From Pseudonocardia autotrophica (lineage in GTDB: Bacteria; Actinomycetota; Actinomycetes; Mycobacteriales; Pseudonocardiaceae), in NCBI RefSeq assembly GCF_003945385.1, contig NZ_AP018920.1, positions 1,550,001 to 1,614,000 on the forward strand: 64,000 bases of DNA, given 5' to 3'. The notes beneath the pieces are model-generated. The model saw only the letters and a program-made list of their open reading frames with translations, made no database searches and was not told the DNA's origin. The position numbers and the translations under genes are program-made. Positions 36,072 to 43,902 of the stretch are shown piece by piece (the stretch's first letter is position 1; each line of letters begins with the position of its first letter).

Positions 36072-37616
36072 TCAGTCCGATCGGGTCGCCGCCCCCGTCC
36101 GGCCGACGTCGCCGACCGGTGCGGCCGACGAGGACGGGATCGTCCGCCACGCGACGACCGCGGCGGCCAGCGTGACTGCTGCCGCGATCAACGAGGTCGT
36201 CTGCATCGCGACGGTGAACGCGGCCCGGGCTCCGTCGAGGACCGGCGATCCGGGGTCCAGCGGGTGTGTACCCGCGGCGAGTGAGTCGGTGACCGCGGCC
36301 CGGTGTTCGGCGGAGAGGTCCGCGGGCAGGTCCAGCCAGCCGCGGTACACCAGCGACACCACCGACCCCAGGACGGCGACGCCCATCGCCACGCCCAGTT
36401 CCAGCGCCGTCTCCGAGATCGCGGAGGCCGCACCGGCCCGGCGGGGCGGAACCGAGGACACCACCGCGTCGGTGGTCAGCGTCTGGGCCAGCCCGACGCC
36501 GAGACCGAGCGGTATCAGGGCGAGTGCGAGCCAGAGGTAGCTGCTGAATCCCTCGGCCACGGCCACCGCGGCCAGTCCGGCGGACACCAGCAGCAGGCTC
36601 GTCGCGATCGCCCGGCCCAGGCCGAGCCGCCGCGACAACCAGCCGACGACCGCGACGACGGCGACGGCCGACAACGTCGTCGGCAGTTCCCCGAGGCCCG
36701 CCTGCAACGGGCTGAACCCACGGACGAGCTGCAGGTACTGGGAGAAGAAGAACAGCGTCCCGATCAGCGCGAAGACCGCCATGAACCCGGCGAACACCGC
36801 CCCGCTGAAGGCGGGACGCGCGAACAGCGACACGTCGATCAGCGGCACCGTCAGCCGGCGCTGGCGGCGGACGAACACCACGCCCATCACGGCACCGGCG
36901 AGCAGTGCCGCGAGGCCGAGGACGTCGACACCCGCGGATACCGTGTGCTTGATCGCCCAGACGACCGGCACGATCGCGGTCATCGACAGCAACGCCGACA
37001 CCGGGTCGAAGGGGCCCGGCGCGGGATCGCGGGACTCCGGGAGCAGCCAGGCACCGAAGACGATCAGCAACACCATGATCGGCACGTTGATCAGGAACAC
37101 CGCTCCCCAGGAGAAGTGCTCCAGGAGCGCACCGCCGACCAGTGGCCCGACCGCCGCGCCACCGCTCGCCGCGGCGGCCCACACCGCGATCGCCCTGGTC
37201 CGCTCCGCCGGATCGGTGAAGATCGTGCGGATCAGCGACAGCGTCGAGGGCATCAGCGTCGCCGCGGCGACGCCGAGCAGTAGCCGGGCGGCGATCAGCA
37301 TCGTGGGGCTGGTCGACAGCGCCGCGAACAGCGACGCGGCACCGAACGCGGCAGCCCCGAGCAGCAGCAGCCGCTTGCGGCCGACCCGGTCGGCCAGCGA
37401 GCCCGCCACGATCAGCAGACCAGCCAGTGCCAGCGAGTAGACGTCGCCGATCCAGAGGATCTCGTTCGCCGTCGGCGCGAGATCCGCGGTGAGGGACGGA
37501 ACGGCGAGGTAGAGCACGGTGTTGTCGACCGCCAGCACCAGCACGGCGAGCGACAGCACGGCCAGGGCCGCCCACCGGCGGGGCGGCGAGAGCGCGTCGG
37601 CGGCAACGGACGTCAT
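36072..37616 (-). CDS. DHA2-family (EmrB/QacA) drug efflux transporter
   Basis: 514 aa, 14 TM predicted. Motifs: VDNTVLYLAVPSLTADL (TM1), ADRVGRKRLLLLG (motif A), RLLLGVAAATLMPSTLSLI, and the antiporter motif GPLVGGALLEHFSWGAVFLINVP. Proton-driven export of drugs or dyes. Divergent from a TetR gene with the operator between them, so substrate-induced derepression is expected. Confidence 0.93.
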   Translation of the reverse strand: MTSVAADALSPPRRWAALAVLSLAVLVLAVDNTVLYLAVPSLTADLAPTANEILWIGDVYSLALAGLLIVAGSLADRVGRKRLLLLGAAAFGAASLFAALSTSPTMLIAARLLLGVAAATLMPSTLSLIRTIFTDPAERTRAIAVWAAAASGGAAVGPLVGGALLEHFSWGAVFLINVPIMVLLIVFGAWLLPESRDPAPGPFDPVSALLSMTAIVPVVWAIKHTVSAGVDVLGLAALLAGAVMGVVFVRRQRRLTVPLIDVSLFARPAFSGAVFAGFMAVFALIGTLFFFSQYLQLVRGFSPLQAGLGELPTTLSAVAVVAVVGWLSRRLGLGRAIATSLLLVSAGLAAVAVAEGFSSYLWLALALIPLGLGVGLAQTLTTDAVVSSVPPRRAGAASAISETALELGVAMGVAVLGSVVSLVYRGWLDLPADLSAEHRAAVTDSLAAGTHPLDPGSPVLDGARAAFTVAMQTTSLIAAAVTLAAAVVAWRTIPSSSAAPVGDVGRTGAATRSD

Positions 37617-37619
37617 GCT

Positions 37620-37649
37620 GAAACTATACCGACTAGTCGGTGAAGTTTC
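37620..37649. promoter_or_regulatory. TetR operator: nested palindrome
   Basis: Core ACCGACTAGTCGGT (37628-37641) is a perfect 14-bp palindrome. It is flanked symmetrically by GAAACT (37620-37625) and AGTTTC (37644-37649). It starts 3 bp from the exporter ATG and lies 44 bp before the TetR ATG, ideal for controlling both genes. Confidence 0.85.
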
Positions 37650-37693
37650 GACGTGGTTGTCGCCTCACCCGCCCGGGGGGAGAGGATGCATCC

Positions 37694-38281
37694 ATGGGTC
37701 GCACGACCGGACGGTCCCCGGAGGACACCCGCAGGCTGGTGCTGCAGGCGGCCGGCGCCGCCATCCGCCGGCACGGTGTCGGCGCGACCCTCGATCTCAT
37801 CGCCCGCGAGGCCGGGGTCTCCAAGGGCGGACTCGTCTACCACTTCGCGAGTAAGGAGGCGCTGCTCGTCGCACTCGCCCAGGGGGAACTCGACGCGTTC
37901 GACGACGCCGTCCGTGCGCACCTCGAGGGAGCCGACGGCACGCCGGGCCGGCTCGTGCGGGCCTACGTGCGGGCGAGTCTGGCGCCCGTCGACGAGGGTG
38001 AGGCGCTCGCCCGGTTCACGCTGATCGCGCAGCTCCTCGCGGTGCCGGCGGTACTCGACCTCGCCCGCGCCGACGACCGTCGCTGGCAGGCCGCGCTGAG
38101 TGCCGACGGGGTGCCGGAGGCCGCCCGGACCCTCGTGCTCGCCGCCGCCGACGGTATCGGCGGCCGGCCGTTGTGGGCCGCGGACCTGTTGCCGCCGGTG
38201 CGGGAGCGGCTGGAGGCCGATCTGCTGGAGATGGTCGACGCGGCCCTCGGTTCGGATACCGCGACGGCTGCTCGGGACTGA
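37694..38281 (+). CDS. TetR-family transcriptional repressor
   Basis: 195 aa. N-terminal HTH: TRRLVLQAAGAAIRRHGVGATLDLIAREAGVSKGGLVYHFASKEALL is the classic TetR DNA-binding domain. The C-terminal ligand domain has the TetR_C_33-like LAPVDEGEALARFTLIAQL. Represses the divergent DHA2 exporter by inference from the operator. ATG 37694 sets the expected short arm before the HTH. Confidence 0.92.
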   Translation: MGRTTGRSPEDTRRLVLQAAGAAIRRHGVGATLDLIAREAGVSKGGLVYHFASKEALLVALAQGELDAFDDAVRAHLEGADGTPGRLVRAYVRASLAPVDEGEALARFTLIAQLLAVPAVLDLARADDRRWQAALSADGVPEAARTLVLAAADGIGGRPLWAADLLPPVRERLEADLLEMVDAALGSDTATAARD

Positions 38282-38857
38282 CGACCGCTCGGCGATGCCG
38301 GGCCGTGTGCGCGGGCCCGGCCGTTGATCATCCCGGCGAGGTGGGGCTCCGGTGCTCGGCCTCGCCTTCGTGGACCTCGACCCGGTTGCGTCCGGCTCGC
38401 TTCGCGACGTAGAGCGCCTCGTCGGCCCGGGCCAGCAGATCGGGCAACGCCGCAGCGCCCGGTGAGCACCAGGAGACCCCGATCGACACGCTCAGCCCGC
38501 GCAGCGGCTGGGAGCCCGAGTCACCGGACACCTGCACCTCCAGTGCCCGGACCCGGCGTCGGATCCGCTCAGCGGCGTCGCGTGCCGCGGCGACGCACGA
38601 CGGAGGACGTCCCCGCAGGCCGCCGAGGAAGACCAGGAACTCCTCGCCGCCGAACCGTCCGGCGACGTCGCGGTCACGGATTTCGGCGGTCACCGCGGCG
38701 CCGACAGCGCGCAGCACCTCGTCACCCGCGAGATGCCCGTGCTCGTCATTGACCCTCTTGAAATGGTCGAGATCCAGCACCAGAACCGCGGACGACGTCA
38801 CATCACGGCGTGCCAGATCGAGCTCGCGTTCGACTCGGCTCATCCATGTGTCACAGT

Positions 38858-39796
38858 GAACGCTTTCCAACTTGATCTCAGCGAGCCTGGATCAGGACCA
38901 TCACGGCCTGGACCAGTGCGGTTGCTCGCTTCGGGCAGCTGCGGATCTTGCGGAGCACCTGCCACGACTTGAGCTGGGCGTTGGCTCGTTCTCCGGGACC
39001 GCGCTGGCGTGCGTGCGCGACGTTGACCTGCTTCTGCGCCTGCGACAGCGGTCGGTAGCGGCCGGTGTCTGGGTCGAGGCGGCGACGACGCTGTGGGACC
39101 CGGATCGCCGGACCGCCGCCTTGGTAGGCGGTGTCGGCGACGACCTGGATCGCGTGCTCGGACAGGGCGTCGATCAGACCGTGTTCGCGGGCTGCGCCCA
39201 TGTCGTGGCGGGCACCGGGCAGCGCGGGTGATGCCCACACCAGTCGACCGGCCGGGTCGGCGAGGACCTGCACGTTCACGCCGTGGCGCTTGTGTTTCCC
39301 GGAGTAGAACGCCCGGTCGTAGCCCGATCCCATGCCGACCCGGTCGATCGCCAGCAGCGTGCCGTCGAGGATCACGAACGCCTTACGTCGGGCCACGCCG
39401 AGCGCCTCGTCCAGCGATGGTGCCGCCGCGGCGAGGACGTCGACGCCTTCGCGGACGTAGCGGAACACCGTCGTGGTGCCGATCCCGAAGCCGCAGGCCA
39501 GAGCGGTGTAGGTCTCGCCCTTGTTCAGGTACGCGAGCACCAGCAGGGCCTGTTGCCCGGGCGGGAGTCGGCGCCACCTACTGCCGAGGTTCTTGCGGTG
39601 TCGGCGTAGTGCGTCGGAGAGGGTGTGCAGGGCGCGGTTGGACACGGGCATCGACGAGGGGTAGACAAGCACCCTGAAGCTCCTGGTTGGGACGGGTTGA
39701 TCTAGGCAATCACCCATCTACCAGGAGCTTCACCTACTTCAGTGACACCACGCCGCAGGCCGACCGACCTCATGATCACCAGGTTGGAAAACGTTC
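38858..39796. mobile_element. IS5-family insertion sequence, 939 bp
   Basis: Ends are inverted repeats: left GAACGCTTTCCAACTTGA, right (inward) GAACGTTTTCCAACCTGG, 15 of 18 matching. Flanked by the 3-bp direct repeat AGT (38855-38857 and 39797-39799). Encodes one DDE transposase. Inserted in the GGDEF domain of the diguanylate cyclase gene. Confidence 0.88.
38878..39672 (-). CDS. IS5-family transposase (DDE_Tnp_4 type)
   Basis: 264 aa. N-terminal helix-turn-helix (LLVLAYLNKGETYTALACGFGIGTTTVFRYVREG). DDE core: FVILDGTLLAIDR (first Asp), GKHKRHGVNVQVLADPAGRLVW, VVADTAYQGGG (second Asp) and a Glu in RQRGPGERANAQLKSW. GTG 39672 has AGGAG 7 nt upstream; the frame is open for 15 more codons. Appears intact. 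Confidence 0.9.
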   Translation of the reverse strand: MLVYPSSMPVSNRALHTLSDALRRHRKNLGSRWRRLPPGQQALLVLAYLNKGETYTALACGFGIGTTTVFRYVREGVDVLAAAAPSLDEALGVARRKAFVILDGTLLAIDRVGMGSGYDRAFYSGKHKRHGVNVQVLADPAGRLVWASPALPGARHDMGAAREHGLIDALSEHAIQVVADTAYQGGGPAIRVPQRRRRLDPDTGRYRPLSQAQKQVNVAHARQRGPGERANAQLKSWQVLRKIRSCPKRATALVQAVMVLIQAR

Positions 39797-40633
39797 AGTT
39801 GAGCAGGCCTGTCTTCGTGTCGGTCTGGACCCGTTCCTTCAGCTCGCGGACCAGCGTCGTGCGTTCGAGGACCAGGAGCACGACGAACACCAGCGGGATC
39901 ACGAATCCGGCCGAGGGCAGAATCGCCGCGGCGACGATGGCTCCGAGGCTGAGCGTCGCCAGCTCCAGTTCGAGATCGCCCCCGCGCAGGATGGCCATGA
40001 AACGGCTTCCGGGCTGCGACAGCCGAATCGCCAGAACGACCAGTATCGTGTTCGTCGCCGCGTACACGACGACGCAGGCGACGATCACCGCAGCGCCGAA
40101 TGTCGAAGCGTAGTTGCCGTCCAGCCCGGTGGCCCAGCGGACGGCGCTGACCGCACCCATCGCCAAGACGACCGTCGCTCCGGAATAGCCCTCGCGGTAG
40201 GACGGGACACCTGAGGGCCGACAAACCCGCCAGTAGAGGTGCGAGTAGCTGATGATCAGCAGGCCGATCGCCAGCGGCAACGGTAACGCGAGGGCCGCCG
40301 CGAATGTCCACACGGAGCTGAGATCGCAGTACCGGGTTTCGGCGACGGTGCGGCGCACGCGCTCGGCGTGCAGCGACAACTCGACATGAACAATGAACGA
40401 CACGGTGAGGGCCGCCGCCACGATCAGCTCGCCACCCGTCGCAGGGGTGAGCACGAGGCCGGCGATCGATGCGGCAACGACGACCAGCGCCAAAAGATCA
40501 ACAATGAGGACGAGTGCTCGAACCCGGCGGGGTACACCCCACAGGGTCCACGCCTTCACCGGGTCGCCCAGGACGCCGTCGGCGTTGCGCGACCTGAGTC
40601 ACCGCAATGCTCGGACAAGGGCCACCCTTTGAT

Positions 40634-42067
40634 GGCTCATCCCAATCGGGGGTGTAGGAGTTGGGGTCTGAAGCCGCCGGTCTCGAGCAGGCTTCGGGCG
40701 ATGTAGTTGGTCAGGTTGCGGAACCCGAGTGCGGAGCCGCGCAGGTGTTCGAGCCGTCCGTTGAGCGCCTCGGTCGGCCCGTTGCTGGTGCCGGGTCGTT
40801 CGAAGTAGGCGAGCACGTCGGCGGCTCGCTTCTTCAGGGTCCGGCCCAGGGTGGTGAGCTCGGTGAGCACCTTGGGGACGCCGGCGCTGAGGTCGGTGAT
40901 CAGCTTCTCCATGAGCTCGCGGCCACGTTGCCGGTCCTCGTGGCGATAGGCGGCGATCATGCGCTGGTAGACACCCCAGGTCGCCTCGACCTCGACGTGA
41001 GCGTCATCAACGAACAGCGCGCGTAGCCTGTCGCTCTGCTTGTCGGTGAGCAGGTCCGCGCCGGTGTGCAGCGTGCGCCGCGACTTGTAGAGCGGGTCGT
41101 CCCTGAACCCACGGTGCCCGTGGATCGCGAGTTGGACCCGGCGCCGGCACCTGTCGAGGGCGTCACCGGCCAGGCGCACGACGTGGAAGGGATCCATCAC
41201 CGTGACCGCGTCCGGGATCTCCTCCGCAGCGGCGGTCTTGAACCCGGTGAAGCCGTCCATCGCGACCACCTCGACCGCGTCACGGAAGGCGTCGTCGCGG
41301 TCGGCGAGCCAGGTCTTGAACGCCGCCTTCGACCGGCCCTCGACCATGTCCAGCAGCCTTGCTGGGCCGGCGCCATCGCGGACCGGGGTGAGGTCGATGA
41401 TCACGGTGACGTACTTGTCGCCACGCCTGGTGTGGCGCCAGACGTGCTCATCGACGCCAATGACCTTCACGCCCTCGAACCGCGTGGGGTCGTTGATCAG
41501 CAGCCGATTGCCTTCGGCCAGGACCGCGTTGTTGGCGGTGTCCCACGCGACCCCGAGTCCCTCGGCGACACGGGCGACGGTGAGGTGTGCGACCACGATC
41601 CCTTCCAGCGCCCACCGCAACCCGGTGCGCGAGAGCTTCGCGCGTGGCTCCGCCGCGGCGCTGGTGTCTTGGCGCCACACGTGTCCGCAGTCGGCACAGC
41701 GGTAGCGGCGCACTACAACTTCCAGCACGGTCGGTCGCCAGCCCAGCGGCTCGTGGGCCAACCGCCGGATCACGGTGTCACGAGCAGCGCCTTCGCTGCC
41801 GCACCGTCGGCAAGACTGATCTGGTTCCACCACGCGGCACGCGAGGACCGCACGATCCGGTTCAAGTCGTTGCCCGGTCACGCTCAGACCGAGGCCGTCG
41901 AGTCGAGCGAAGGCGGTCAGGTCAGGGCGGCCGAAGCCGGCCGGCGGGGTAGCGTCGGACACGTCGAGGTCTTTCGGATGGATGGCGTAGGAACCTCCAT
42001 CGTCGGGAGACCTCGACGTCTATCTGCGGACCGACGCGCCGACCTACACCCTCATCTGGGAAGAGCC
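40634..42067. mobile_element. ISL3-family insertion sequence, 1434 bp
   Basis: Terminal inverted repeats of about 25 bp: left GGCTCATCCCAATCGGGGGT, right (inward) GGCTCTTCCCAGATGAGGGT, both followed by GTAGG. Perfect 8-bp target duplication CCTTTGAT at 40626-40633 and 42068-42075, the size expected for ISL3. The transposase stop lies inside the left repeat. Confidence 0.93.
40637..41962 (-). CDS. ISL3-family transposase
   Basis: 441 aa. N-terminal zinc ribbon (CRRCG...CADCG), a HTH (LTVARVAEGLGVAWDTANNAV), then the DDE domain: VIGVDEHVWRH, VVAMDGFTGFKTAAAEEIPDAVTVMDPFHVVRLA, and the Glu in SNGPTEALNGRLEHLRGSALGF. Full length and uninterrupted, so potentially active. Starts at GTG. Confidence 0.93.
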   Translation of the reverse strand: MSDATPPAGFGRPDLTAFARLDGLGLSVTGQRLEPDRAVLACRVVEPDQSCRRCGSEGAARDTVIRRLAHEPLGWRPTVLEVVVRRYRCADCGHVWRQDTSAAAEPRAKLSRTGLRWALEGIVVAHLTVARVAEGLGVAWDTANNAVLAEGNRLLINDPTRFEGVKVIGVDEHVWRHTRRGDKYVTVIIDLTPVRDGAGPARLLDMVEGRSKAAFKTWLADRDDAFRDAVEVVAMDGFTGFKTAAAEEIPDAVTVMDPFHVVRLAGDALDRCRRRVQLAIHGHRGFRDDPLYKSRRTLHTGADLLTDKQSDRLRALFVDDAHVEVEATWGVYQRMIAAYRHEDRQRGRELMEKLITDLSAGVPKVLTELTTLGRTLKKRAADVLAYFERPGTSNGPTEALNGRLEHLRGSALGFRNLTNYIARSLLETGGFRPQLLHPRLG

Positions 42068-42262: not shown

Positions 42263-42488
42263 CCTCGAGTGATCGGGGCTCCGTGGGATCTGAACGTCAC
42301 GAACTGTTGCCTGCGGCCGCCGCTGTCTCTGCCGGTGCACGTTCGCGTGGGCGGAGTCTGTACACGAAATCCGGAAGGGGCGTCGTCGGTAACCATCCTG
42401 CGGTGATCACGATGGAAGCCCGAAGCGGTTTCGCGTGGCGATCCGCTACGTTCCGAACATGCAGACCACTCGAACGAGGAGGAATGCG

Positions 42489-42509
42489 ATGCGTAACCGG
42501 CACTGGTGA
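42489..42509 (+). CDS. mini-gene 1, peptide MRNRHW
   Basis: ATG start, ribosome binding site AGGAGG at 42477-42482, 6 nt before ATG. Trp4 is Arg (CGG for TGG), so it is a variant copy at the array edge. Confidence 0.65.
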   Translation: MRNRHW

Positions 42510-42557
42510 GTGCAGACGCCACCTGCACCGGCGATCACATATGACAGGGAGGTTGAC

Positions 42558-42578
42558 GTGCGTAACTGGCACTGGTGA
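42558..42578 (+). CDS. mini-gene 2, peptide MRNWHW
   Basis: GTG start, binding site AGGGAGG at 42546-42552. Codons CGT AAC TGG CAC TGG, then TGA. Type A spacer. Confidence 0.75.
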   Translation: MRNWHW

Positions 42579-42627
42579 GTACCGGCAGTCCTGCACATCC
42601 GCGACCACACGCTACGAGGAGGCCGAC

Positions 42628-42648
42628 GTGCGCAACTGGCACTGGTGA
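42628..42648 (+). CDS. mini-gene 3, peptide MRNWHW
   Basis: GTG start, binding site GAGGAGG at 42616-42622. Synonymous change CGC for Arg2. Type A spacer with CTACGAGGAGG. Confidence 0.75.
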   Translation: MRNWHW

Positions 42649-42698
42649 CACCGCAGATGGAAGCCGATCCCGCTACACGAGCCCGAGAGGACGACACA

Positions 42699-42719
42699 AT
42701 GCGCAACTGGCACTGGTGA
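42699..42719 (+). CDS. mini-gene 4, peptide MRNWHW
   Basis: ATG start, binding site AGAGGA at 42686-42691. Arg2 by CGC. Type B spacer (CCGCTACACGAGCCCG). Confidence 0.75.
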   Translation: MRNWHW

Positions 42720-42768
42720 ATCCCTGCCGAAACTCATTCCCGGAAGCGCACACCGTAGGGAGGTCGAC

Positions 42769-42789
42769 GTGCGTAACTGGCGCTGGTGA
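42769..42789 (+). CDS. mini-gene 5, peptide MRNWRW
   Basis: GTG start, binding site AGGGAGG at 42757-42763. His5 is Arg (CGC for CAC), a single transition; the other codons are as in the consensus. Confidence 0.68.
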   Translation: MRNWRW

Positions 42790-42838
42790 CATCGGCAACC
42801 GGAACCGTTCCCGCTACACGAGCCCGGAGGACAGCGTA

Positions 42839-42859
42839 ATGCGTAACTGGCACTGGTGA
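42839..42859 (+). CDS. mini-gene 6, peptide MRNWHW
   Basis: ATG start, binding site CGGAGGA at 42825-42831. Consensus codons with CGT. Type B spacer. Confidence 0.75.
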   Translation: MRNWHW

Positions 42860-42907
42860 ATTCCGATGGCCCTCACATCTGCGACTACACGCTACGAGGA
42901 GGTCGAC

Positions 42908-42928
42908 GTGCGCAACTGGCACTGGTGA
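42908..42928 (+). CDS. mini-gene 7, peptide MRNWHW
   Basis: GTG start, binding site GAGGAGG at 42896-42902. Arg2 by CGC. Type A spacer nearly matching that of mini-gene 3. Confidence 0.75.
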   Translation: MRNWHW

Positions 42929-42977
42929 CACCGCCGACAAGGCCGATCCCGCTACACGAATCCGGAAGGACAGCCCA

Positions 42978-42998
42978 CTGCGTAACTGGCACCGGTGA
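42978..42998 (+). CDS. mini-gene 8, degenerate (CTG start, RNWHR)
   Basis: The start position is CTG instead of ATG or GTG, and Trp6 is Arg (CGG). Binding site GGAAGGA remains. Probably a decaying copy next to the 24-bp tandem repeat. Confidence 0.5.
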   Translation: MRNWHR

Positions 42999-43020
42999 AC
43001 AGAGTGGTCGGCCACCCGGC

Positions 43021-43116
43021 ACGGCAGTGTCGAGCAACAACCGAACGGCAGTGTCGAGCAACAACCGAACGGCAGTGTCGAGCAACAACCGAACGGCAGA
43101 GTCGAGCAACAACCGA
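43021..43116. repeat. 24-bp tandem repeat inside the mini-gene array
   Basis: Four adjacent copies of 24 bp (core CGGCAGTGTCGAGCAACAAC) at 43021, 43045, 43069 and 43093, three identical and the fourth with one change, then a partial copy. It separates mini-gene 8 from mini-gene 9 and accounts for most of the enlarged 202-bp gap. Confidence 0.92.
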
Positions 43117-43179
43117 ACGGCAGCACGGCAGTGGCTCCGCGCCGACCGCACACCGACCGTCGGAACGAAGGAGAAGAAC

Positions 43180-43200
43180 ATGCGTAACTGGCACTGGTGA
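43180..43200 (+). CDS. mini-gene 9, peptide MRNWHW
   Basis: ATG start with AAGGAG at 43168-43173, 6 nt before. Consensus peptide preserved although its upstream sequence is unrelated to the other spacers. This supports selection on the peptide. Confidence 0.78.
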   Translation: MRNWHW

Positions 43201-43369: not shown

Positions 43370-43570
43370 CCGGCCCAGCGGATTCGACGCCGACGTCACC
43401 CGGCGATGTCGGTGCCCTGTGCCCGCTCCAACGCCCTGTCGGTCGGCATGATGGTCGTCGGTCGCCGGTGGGAGGACACGACCGTGCTGGCGGCCTCGCA
43501 CGCGTTCGAGCAGACCGGCGTCTACGGCGACGTCGTCACCGGGACCCCGGTGACCGCGGCGAGCCGAGCC
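43370..43570 (+). pseudogene. amidase-signature enzyme, C-terminal remnant
   Basis: Frame 3 reads GFDADVT, then after a frameshift near 43400 HPAMSVPCARSNALSVGMMVVGRRWEDTTVLAASHAFEQ. This is the C-terminal motif region of amidases (TGHPAMSVPCG; GVMLVGRRFEDATVLR). The rest of the enzyme is absent. The 170 bp before it (43201-43369) show nothing recognisable. Confidence 0.75.
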
Positions 43571-43647
43571 GGGCCGGCACCGTCCGGTGGGTGTGCGTGC
43601 CACCCGGCTGTACCGCCGAGCCAGGCCGGCCGGGTGGCGCGCTCTCG

Positions 43648-43902
43648 GTCACGGGTACCGGTGTCGACGCGGCACCCGACGGTGCCGCTTCCGACCGGTA
43701 CGCCGCACGGATCCTGCTCGCCGTGCACACGGCCGTCGGGATCGGGCGGATCCGCAGGCTGAATCTGTGCGCGAACGACGACTGCCGGTGGGCGTTCTGG
43801 GACGCGTCCCGGCCCGGGACGGGCCGATGGTGCTCGATGCAGGTGTGCGGCGGGCAGCACAAGGCTCGGGAGTACCGCAGGCGGAATCGGACGACATCGT
43901 GA
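43648..43902 (+). pseudogene. CGNR zinc-finger regulator, C-terminal remnant
   Basis: Reads ILLAVHTAVGIGRIRRLNLCANDDCRWAFWDASRPGTGRWCSMQVCGGQHKAREYRRR. Matches the CGNR zinc-finger end of ABATE-domain regulators (C-x4-C, then WCSMxxCGN), but CGNR is CGGQ here. The N-terminal ABATE domain is missing. Stop overlaps the GTG of the next remnant. Confidence 0.75.

Follow-up and report, generated by a model that had tools for sequence, protein, structure and literature searches.

Tandem six-codon genes facing a membrane diguanylate cyclase in Pseudonocardia autotrophica, likely part of an undescribed peptide signaling system

Nine mini-genes and a split cyclase gene

The 64,000-nucleotide stretch of the Pseudonocardia autotrophica genome analyzed here (the window) contained an array of nine mini-genes at positions 42489-43200 of the + strand, each a 21-nt frame with its own ribosome site, divergent from a gene for a membrane diguanylate cyclase. 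Six of the nine encoded the peptide MRNWHW and ended in TGA: mini-genes 2 (42558..42578), 3 (42628..42648), and 7 (42908..42928) started with GTG, and mini-genes 4 (42699..42719), 6 (42839..42859), and 9 (43180..43200) with ATG. The remaining three were deviant, encoding MRNRHW in mini-gene 1 (42489..42509, ATG start), MRNWRW in mini-gene 5 (42769..42789, GTG start), and RNWHR in mini-gene 8 (42978..42998, CTG start), the last of which is probably dead. A scan for Shine-Dalgarno sequences found a purine-rich one 5-8 nt before the start in eight of the nine units; the scan did not cover mini-gene 8, which starts with CTG and had GGAAGGA upstream. The distance from unit to unit was 69-71 nt, followed by 202 nt ahead of mini-gene 9, whose upstream sequence was unrelated to that of the other units. 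An earlier note on this DNA, made from the letters alone, had described the nine frames with their ribosome sites, the varying start codons, the peptide kept in six of nine, and the unrelated sequence before mini-gene 9, and all of these descriptions held. Between mini-genes 8 and 9 there was also a tandem repeat of a 24-bp unit in 4.3 copies (43021-43123), off the mini-gene periodicity. The core MRNWHW pattern had six matches in the 7.5-Mb genome, all of them in this array, and none in a reversed control, so the array is not a product of chance. Rfam and transfer RNA scans of the window found nothing, nor did promoter and terminator scans of the array.

The cyclase gene, on the - strand, was split. 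Its sensor part (39795..40559), a membrane domain recognized by homology and by a structure model with a fold like that of the S-components of energy-coupling factor (ECF) transporters, ended at an inserted transposase gene (38878..39717, -; PF13359/PF13613), beyond which lay the separated GGDEF catalytic part (38328..38870, -) with its GGEEF motif (RFGGEEF) and RxxD site. Terminal repeats of the element carrying this transposase were looked for and none were found. An ISL3-family insertion (40634..42067; transposase at 40637-41962, - strand), bounded by 25-nt imperfect terminal inverted repeats (40634-40658 and 42043-42067), separated the start of the cyclase from the array. The cyclase had been missed in the earlier note because it lies outside the region described there and is split by the transposase gene.

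Conservation of the peptides

The exact MRNWHW pattern was present in 3 of 62 Pseudonocardia genomes, and in a collection of 84,980 species it occurred in 15 stretches, namely two arrays and 13 singletons in other phyla. P. nigra DSM 104088 had an MRNWHW array of six readable units plus an assembly gap, and Pseudonocardia sp. CNS-139 had one of four units. Both arrays used different Arg codons and had spacers unrelated to those of the window, so that the peptide itself is conserved in relatives, a check that the earlier note had named. In viral contigs there was one singleton and no array, and a phage or mobile origin was rejected.

A pattern consisting of a Shine-Dalgarno sequence plus the frame was found in 41 of the 62 Pseudonocardia genomes (2 in the reversed control) and, across the Pseudonocardiaceae, in 38 of 297 genomes and 10 of 46 genera (control, 4). 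The peptides in Pseudonocardia included MRNWHW, MRNWTW, MRNWGW, MRNWNW, MRNKSW, MRNKNW, MRNRSW, and MRNRHW, among others, and the largest array, of MRNKSW, had up to 21 units with SNKSW included. In Pseudonocardiaceae outside Pseudonocardia the mini-gene was single copy in 19 loci (MRNREW, MRNRDW, MRNKDW, MRNKEW, and three others), which came from 21 genomes with pattern matches, two of which (G078 and G129) yielded no locus.

Outside the Pseudonocardiaceae, the strict NxxW-stop pattern gave one isolated match in each of 6 of 393 other genomes of the class, a chance-like result; the arrays found there differ in peptide and were reached solely through the cyclase search. Jiangellaceae-type loci contained arrays of MRDNTWT, MRDNNWN, MRGNSWD, MRANSWD, MRDVNWT, or MRDNTWS upstream of and divergent from the cyclase, and Streptosporangiaceae-type loci contained a single MLRGVTWI/T in the same arrangement, each label resting on what the proteins nearest to one member are called. 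MRSVQWA, MSSTQWG, MRDVHWG, and MRGWKWS were encoded upstream of the cyclase in further families. The peptides share Arg2 and a Trp at codon 6 (codon 7 in MLRGVTW), mostly as M-R-x-x-x-W plus 0-1 residue; MSSTQWG, MRNWGF, and a few seven-residue forms break the rule. The divergent upstream kilobase of 30 loci contained 89 Trp mini-frames with ribosome sites, a number that includes nested starts and a few unrelated frames, versus 0, 0, and 1 in three control stretches. One locus of a Jiangellaceae-like family (L169, genome G559) had a doubled peptide, MRDTNWVLRDTNWSW, in repeated units in the divergent upstream region.

Codon use was counted over 237 units with distinct 75-bp contexts, all counts being reduced to distinct contexts. 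Information was concentrated in the ribosome site and in the frame itself, start and stop codons included, with little on either flank. The start codon was GTG in 122 units, ATG in 112, and TTG in 3; Arg2 was CGC in 169, CGT in 46, and CGG in 8; Ser5 was AGC in 60, TCC in 28, and TCG in 1; and Ala codons also varied synonymously among related units. The stop codon varied likewise (TGA 235, TAA 2, TAG 0). The uniformity of TGA is striking, TAG having been permitted in the unit scan and not in the pattern behind many of the loci. Codons 3 and 6 and the middle base of codon 2 were preset by the scan, which leaves just codons 4-5 for an unbiased count; there, neighboring units showed 42 synonymous differences (31 of them AGC/TCC) versus 3 nonsynonymous ones. 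The synonymous variation, the unconserved spacers, and this count bear out the selection on a peptide that the earlier note had claimed, and, as far as sequence can tell, there is strong support both for translation of the mini-genes and for selection on the peptides they encode.

Codon 3 and TGG-TGA were strongly conserved in the Pseudonocardiaceae, in part as an effect of the scan, in which codons 3 and 6 were preset, and such conservation would suit a DNA or RNA site recognized by a protein, its coding being incidental. That explanation is extremely improbable. Serine codons are swapped at two bases (AGC/TCC), arginine is encoded by CGC or AGG, start codons change, in other families the DNA differs and the Trp-6 rule mostly holds, and conservation stops at the start and stop codons.

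All three nonsynonymous differences between neighbors fell in the window array. In 23 other arrays 0 of 177 units deviated from the array majority at codons 4-5, compared with 2 of 9 in the window (Fisher p 0.002). One of the 10 units listed for the G046 array, which was not in that set, read MRNRTW instead of MRNRAW, and with this array added the comparison was 2 of 9 versus 1 of 187 (p 0.006). The window array appears to be decaying, with its coding drifting, and the window is the sole locus where the cyclase was seen split by a transposase gene, other cyclases not all having been checked for damage.

Pairing of mini-genes and cyclases

In P. nigra and CNS-139 a membrane GGDEF gene had the array immediately upstream of it and pointing away. 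The P. nigra cyclase (PF00990 match, E 3.7e-36), used as a query, had matches in 61 of the 62 Pseudonocardia genomes. Thirty Pseudonocardia loci were fetched, of which 21 contained strict mini-genes (tandem or single), 2 contained seven-residue forms, and 7 contained none; all 116 strict units in these loci were divergent upstream of the cyclase. Outside Pseudonocardia, the cyclase was divergent beside the mini-gene in 16 of the 19 loci. Cyclase homologs were found in 42 of 246 genomes of the class, and mini-genes were found at 46 of 59 cyclase loci, including loci of the Jiangellaceae, the Streptosporangiaceae, and others outside the Pseudonocardiaceae; the 59 loci represent the best match per genome, further paralogs being uncounted. 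A Jiangella query run at E 1e-12 against a phylum sample found no cyclase of the mini-gene-linked family in 295 other genomes.

Among 36 loci of 14-20 kb, the cyclase was the upstream divergent neighbor in 33, the displaced cyclase of the window included; the exceptions were L151, L154, and L161. L154 (P. nigra, G022:C6) and L161 (G091:C13) each had a single MRNRGW mini-gene with no cyclase found nearby, and L161 retained a major facilitator superfamily (MFS) gene that ends a few bases from the mini-gene. Five loci (L138, L142, L143, L146, and L147) had two to four tandem paralogous membrane cyclases beside one array.

A cyclase tree of 56 rows was inferred from 55 fetched cyclase loci and the sensor piece of the window; repeats of one genome region, loci whose cyclase was cut off, and a number of MRNREW loci were left out. 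The peptide types required 19 changes on this tree, against a minimum of 17 and a shuffle mean of 43.1; peptide type follows the tree, most cyclase clades having a peptide of their own. The seven mini-gene-less cyclases formed one clade, and RNWHW, RNWTW, RNKSW, RNKNW, and RNKDW had two origins each. Eleven genomes had two or three mini-gene loci, among them the P. nigra MRNRGW locus without a cyclase, and no peptide was repeated between the loci of a genome; in G058, MRNKSW occurred on two contigs, at contig ends, probably a single array that the assembly broke in two. At the cyclase described above the window genome had MRNWHW; three other cyclases came with MRNWNW, MRNRGW, and MRNWGF, and no mini-gene was found at its fifth. 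Cyclase positions tracking peptide residue 4 were also considered and dropped, because the W-type cyclases form one clade and the tracking is not independent evidence.

The conserved divergent pairing across several families supports a predicted functional linkage between mini-genes and cyclase, and the drift of the array where the cyclase is broken supports it more weakly. The mini-genes that face a cyclase in several actinobacterial families, often beside an MFS gene, are likely to belong to an undescribed peptide signaling system; a literature search, with subscription papers and most preprints outside its reach, found no description of the mini-gene peptides or of mini-genes beside cyclases.

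A candidate ligand and the alternatives

GGEEF was invariant among 52 aligned cyclase homologs, and the MASE9 match of the cyclase (17.2 bits) was below the Pfam cut-off of 24.3. The membrane half was modeled alone because full-length fold searches returned GGDEF domains among the matches listed, and the model resembled the vitamin-binding ECF S-components RibU, ThiT, and BtuM, with ~7-13% identity in the 12 best rows. The protein is like the MASE-type membrane GGDEF cyclases in its GGEEF catalytic domain, its RxxD site, and its N-terminal multi-helix membrane sensor, but the sensor is modeled as S-component-like and the gene faces peptide mini-genes. It is like the S-components in the predicted fold of its membrane half, which is fused to GGDEF and not to an ECF ATPase module.

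Gene neighbors were called with a simple codon-position gene finder and tblastn, which replaced a six-frame neighbor clustering that was too noisy in DNA of 73% GC. An EntS-like MFS efflux gene (PF07690; also TIGR00900-like, below cut-off) was the commonest convergent neighbor, lying downstream in 20 of the 36 loci; 2 loci had it co-directional, 3 had it nearby, and 11 lacked it. In the 59 cyclase loci, which have short flanks, an MFS gene was present at 23 of the 46 with mini-genes versus 1 of the 13 without (p 0.009), and the single MFS-bearing locus scored as mini-gene-less was L169, which carries the doubled-peptide array.

MRNWHW may be the dedicated ligand of the divergent membrane diguanylate cyclase, switching the synthesis of cyclic di-GMP (c-di-GMP), a proposal to which we assign a probability of about one half. 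We infer a ligand that is exported by the MFS protein and acts between cells. The peptide would be made without a leader, each unit from its own ribosome-binding site, would leave the cell through the MFS pump, and would collect outside and bind the S-component-like membrane domain; the bound cyclase would then alter c-di-GMP synthesis, closing a self-signaling loop in which array copy number may set the dose and residues 4-5 the channel. Somewhat short of even odds, and more tentative, is the general form of this proposal, a new type of signaling in which leaderless Trp peptides from genes of 21-27 bp would be exported by MFS proteins and read by private S-component-like cyclases, forming separate c-di-GMP channels.

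Several observations weigh against the ligand proposal. The peptide and the adjacent cyclase gene co-segregate, and linkage alone could yield their co-variation; in L151 the cyclase is 2.7 kb away, yet the array has not drifted; and no MFS gene was seen at 23 of the 46 short-flank loci with mini-genes. The last point, along with the missing leader and the near-constant pairing with the cyclase, would also fit a peptide that stays inside the cell, in amounts proportional to array copy number, and that binds the cyclase either from the cytoplasmic side or in the course of membrane insertion. We regard such intracellular action as unlikely, if worth serious attention, given that the MFS efflux gene is enriched beside mini-gene loci and that the predicted fold of the membrane half is S-component-like, proteins of this type binding their ligand from outside.

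The very short frames, strong ribosome sites, near-terminal Trp, and predominance of TGA (235 of 237) would be features of a ribosome-based device as well, in which the mini-frames sense charged transfer RNA or stall ribosomes and so regulate the fate of the transcript. This is improbable: the next downstream gene runs toward the array in 26 of the 36 loci, which leaves no conserved target for control in cis, and residues 4-5 differ between paralogs while their codons vary synonymously. A leader or attenuator was rejected, the downstream gene being co-directional in just 10 of the 36 loci by the codon-position gene finder; in two of these ten (L136 and L159) a convergent MFS gene was nearer by tblastn. 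An efflux-type MFS neighbor, multicopy arrays, and private peptide variants could also mark a secreted antimicrobial peptide with the MFS as its immunity or export gene and the cyclase as a linked regulator, which is very unlikely when the near-constant partner is the cyclase rather than the MFS and when 6-8 residues are very small for a bacteriocin.

Secreted peptide pheromones typically have a precursor with a secretion leader, a processed mature peptide, and an adjacent, co-varying gene for the cognate receptor. The Rap-Phr/RRNPP and Agr systems are like the loci described here in having short peptides with variable specificity residues, each beside a receptor gene of its own, here a candidate one. 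Their peptides are cut from leader-bearing precursors, whereas here the entire frame is 6-8 residues without a secretion leader, a peptide of mature size being the whole gene, and the putative receptor is a membrane GGDEF enzyme.

The earlier note had proposed a cross-linked peptide or signal by analogy with biarylitides, in which a cytochrome P450 forms the cross-link; the signal part of this proposal survives, and the cross-link is unsupported. Biarylitides (bytA/bytO; PMC13417212) occur mainly in Actinomycetota and have five-residue precursors of the form MxYxY/H, aromatic at positions 3 and 5, each encoded directly by a mini-gene that is tightly coupled to a cross-linking P450 and is multicopy in some strains (up to six copies in Lysinibacillus). 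The mini-genes described here are alike in directly encoding a short peptide in multiple copies, but the aromatic residues at positions 3 and 5 are lacking (MRNWHW has Asn3 and His5), the partner is a diguanylate cyclase, and no P450 of this kind was found at the loci by its heme motif. Most variants contain a single aromatic residue and lack His, and in MRNKSW, MRNRAW, MRNREW, MRDNTWT, and MRGNSWD no aromatic-aromatic or Trp-His link is therefore possible. Neither the 36 loci nor the window contained a P450 heme motif, in agreement with the earlier note as far as the window is concerned, and in a PF00067 search of nine genomes the nearest P450 among the matches listed was ~21 kb from an array (G035). 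The note had also suggested looking for P450s next to tandem frames in other genomes; the heme motif was absent from the 36 loci, and the near-constant neighbor was the cyclase. With no heme motif near the loci and mostly one-aromatic variants, the biarylitide reading fails, and an array of ribosomally synthesized and post-translationally modified peptide precursors cross-linked by an unlinked P450 or another enzyme has very little likelihood.

If the ligand proposal is correct, many actinobacterial membrane cyclases whose annotation stops at GGDEF would acquire a ligand legible in the DNA beside them, and the signal genes, among the smallest conceivable, would have escaped notice because frames of 21 bp are passed over by gene-finding programs. 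Each peptide-cyclase pair is a separate prediction, open to a direct test with synthetic peptides. Even apart from a ligand role, conserved genes of 6-8 codons in up to 21 tandem copies are unexpected.

On the far side of the window cyclase there was a DHA2-type MFS efflux gene (36072..37616, -), a candidate substitute exporter, and between it and the cyclase a TetR regulator gene (37640..38281, +); the order MFS, TetR, cyclase, array is common to the window and CNS-139. Directly downstream of the array, at 43468-43902 on the + strand, was an open frame with a C-terminal CGNR zinc finger (PF11706).
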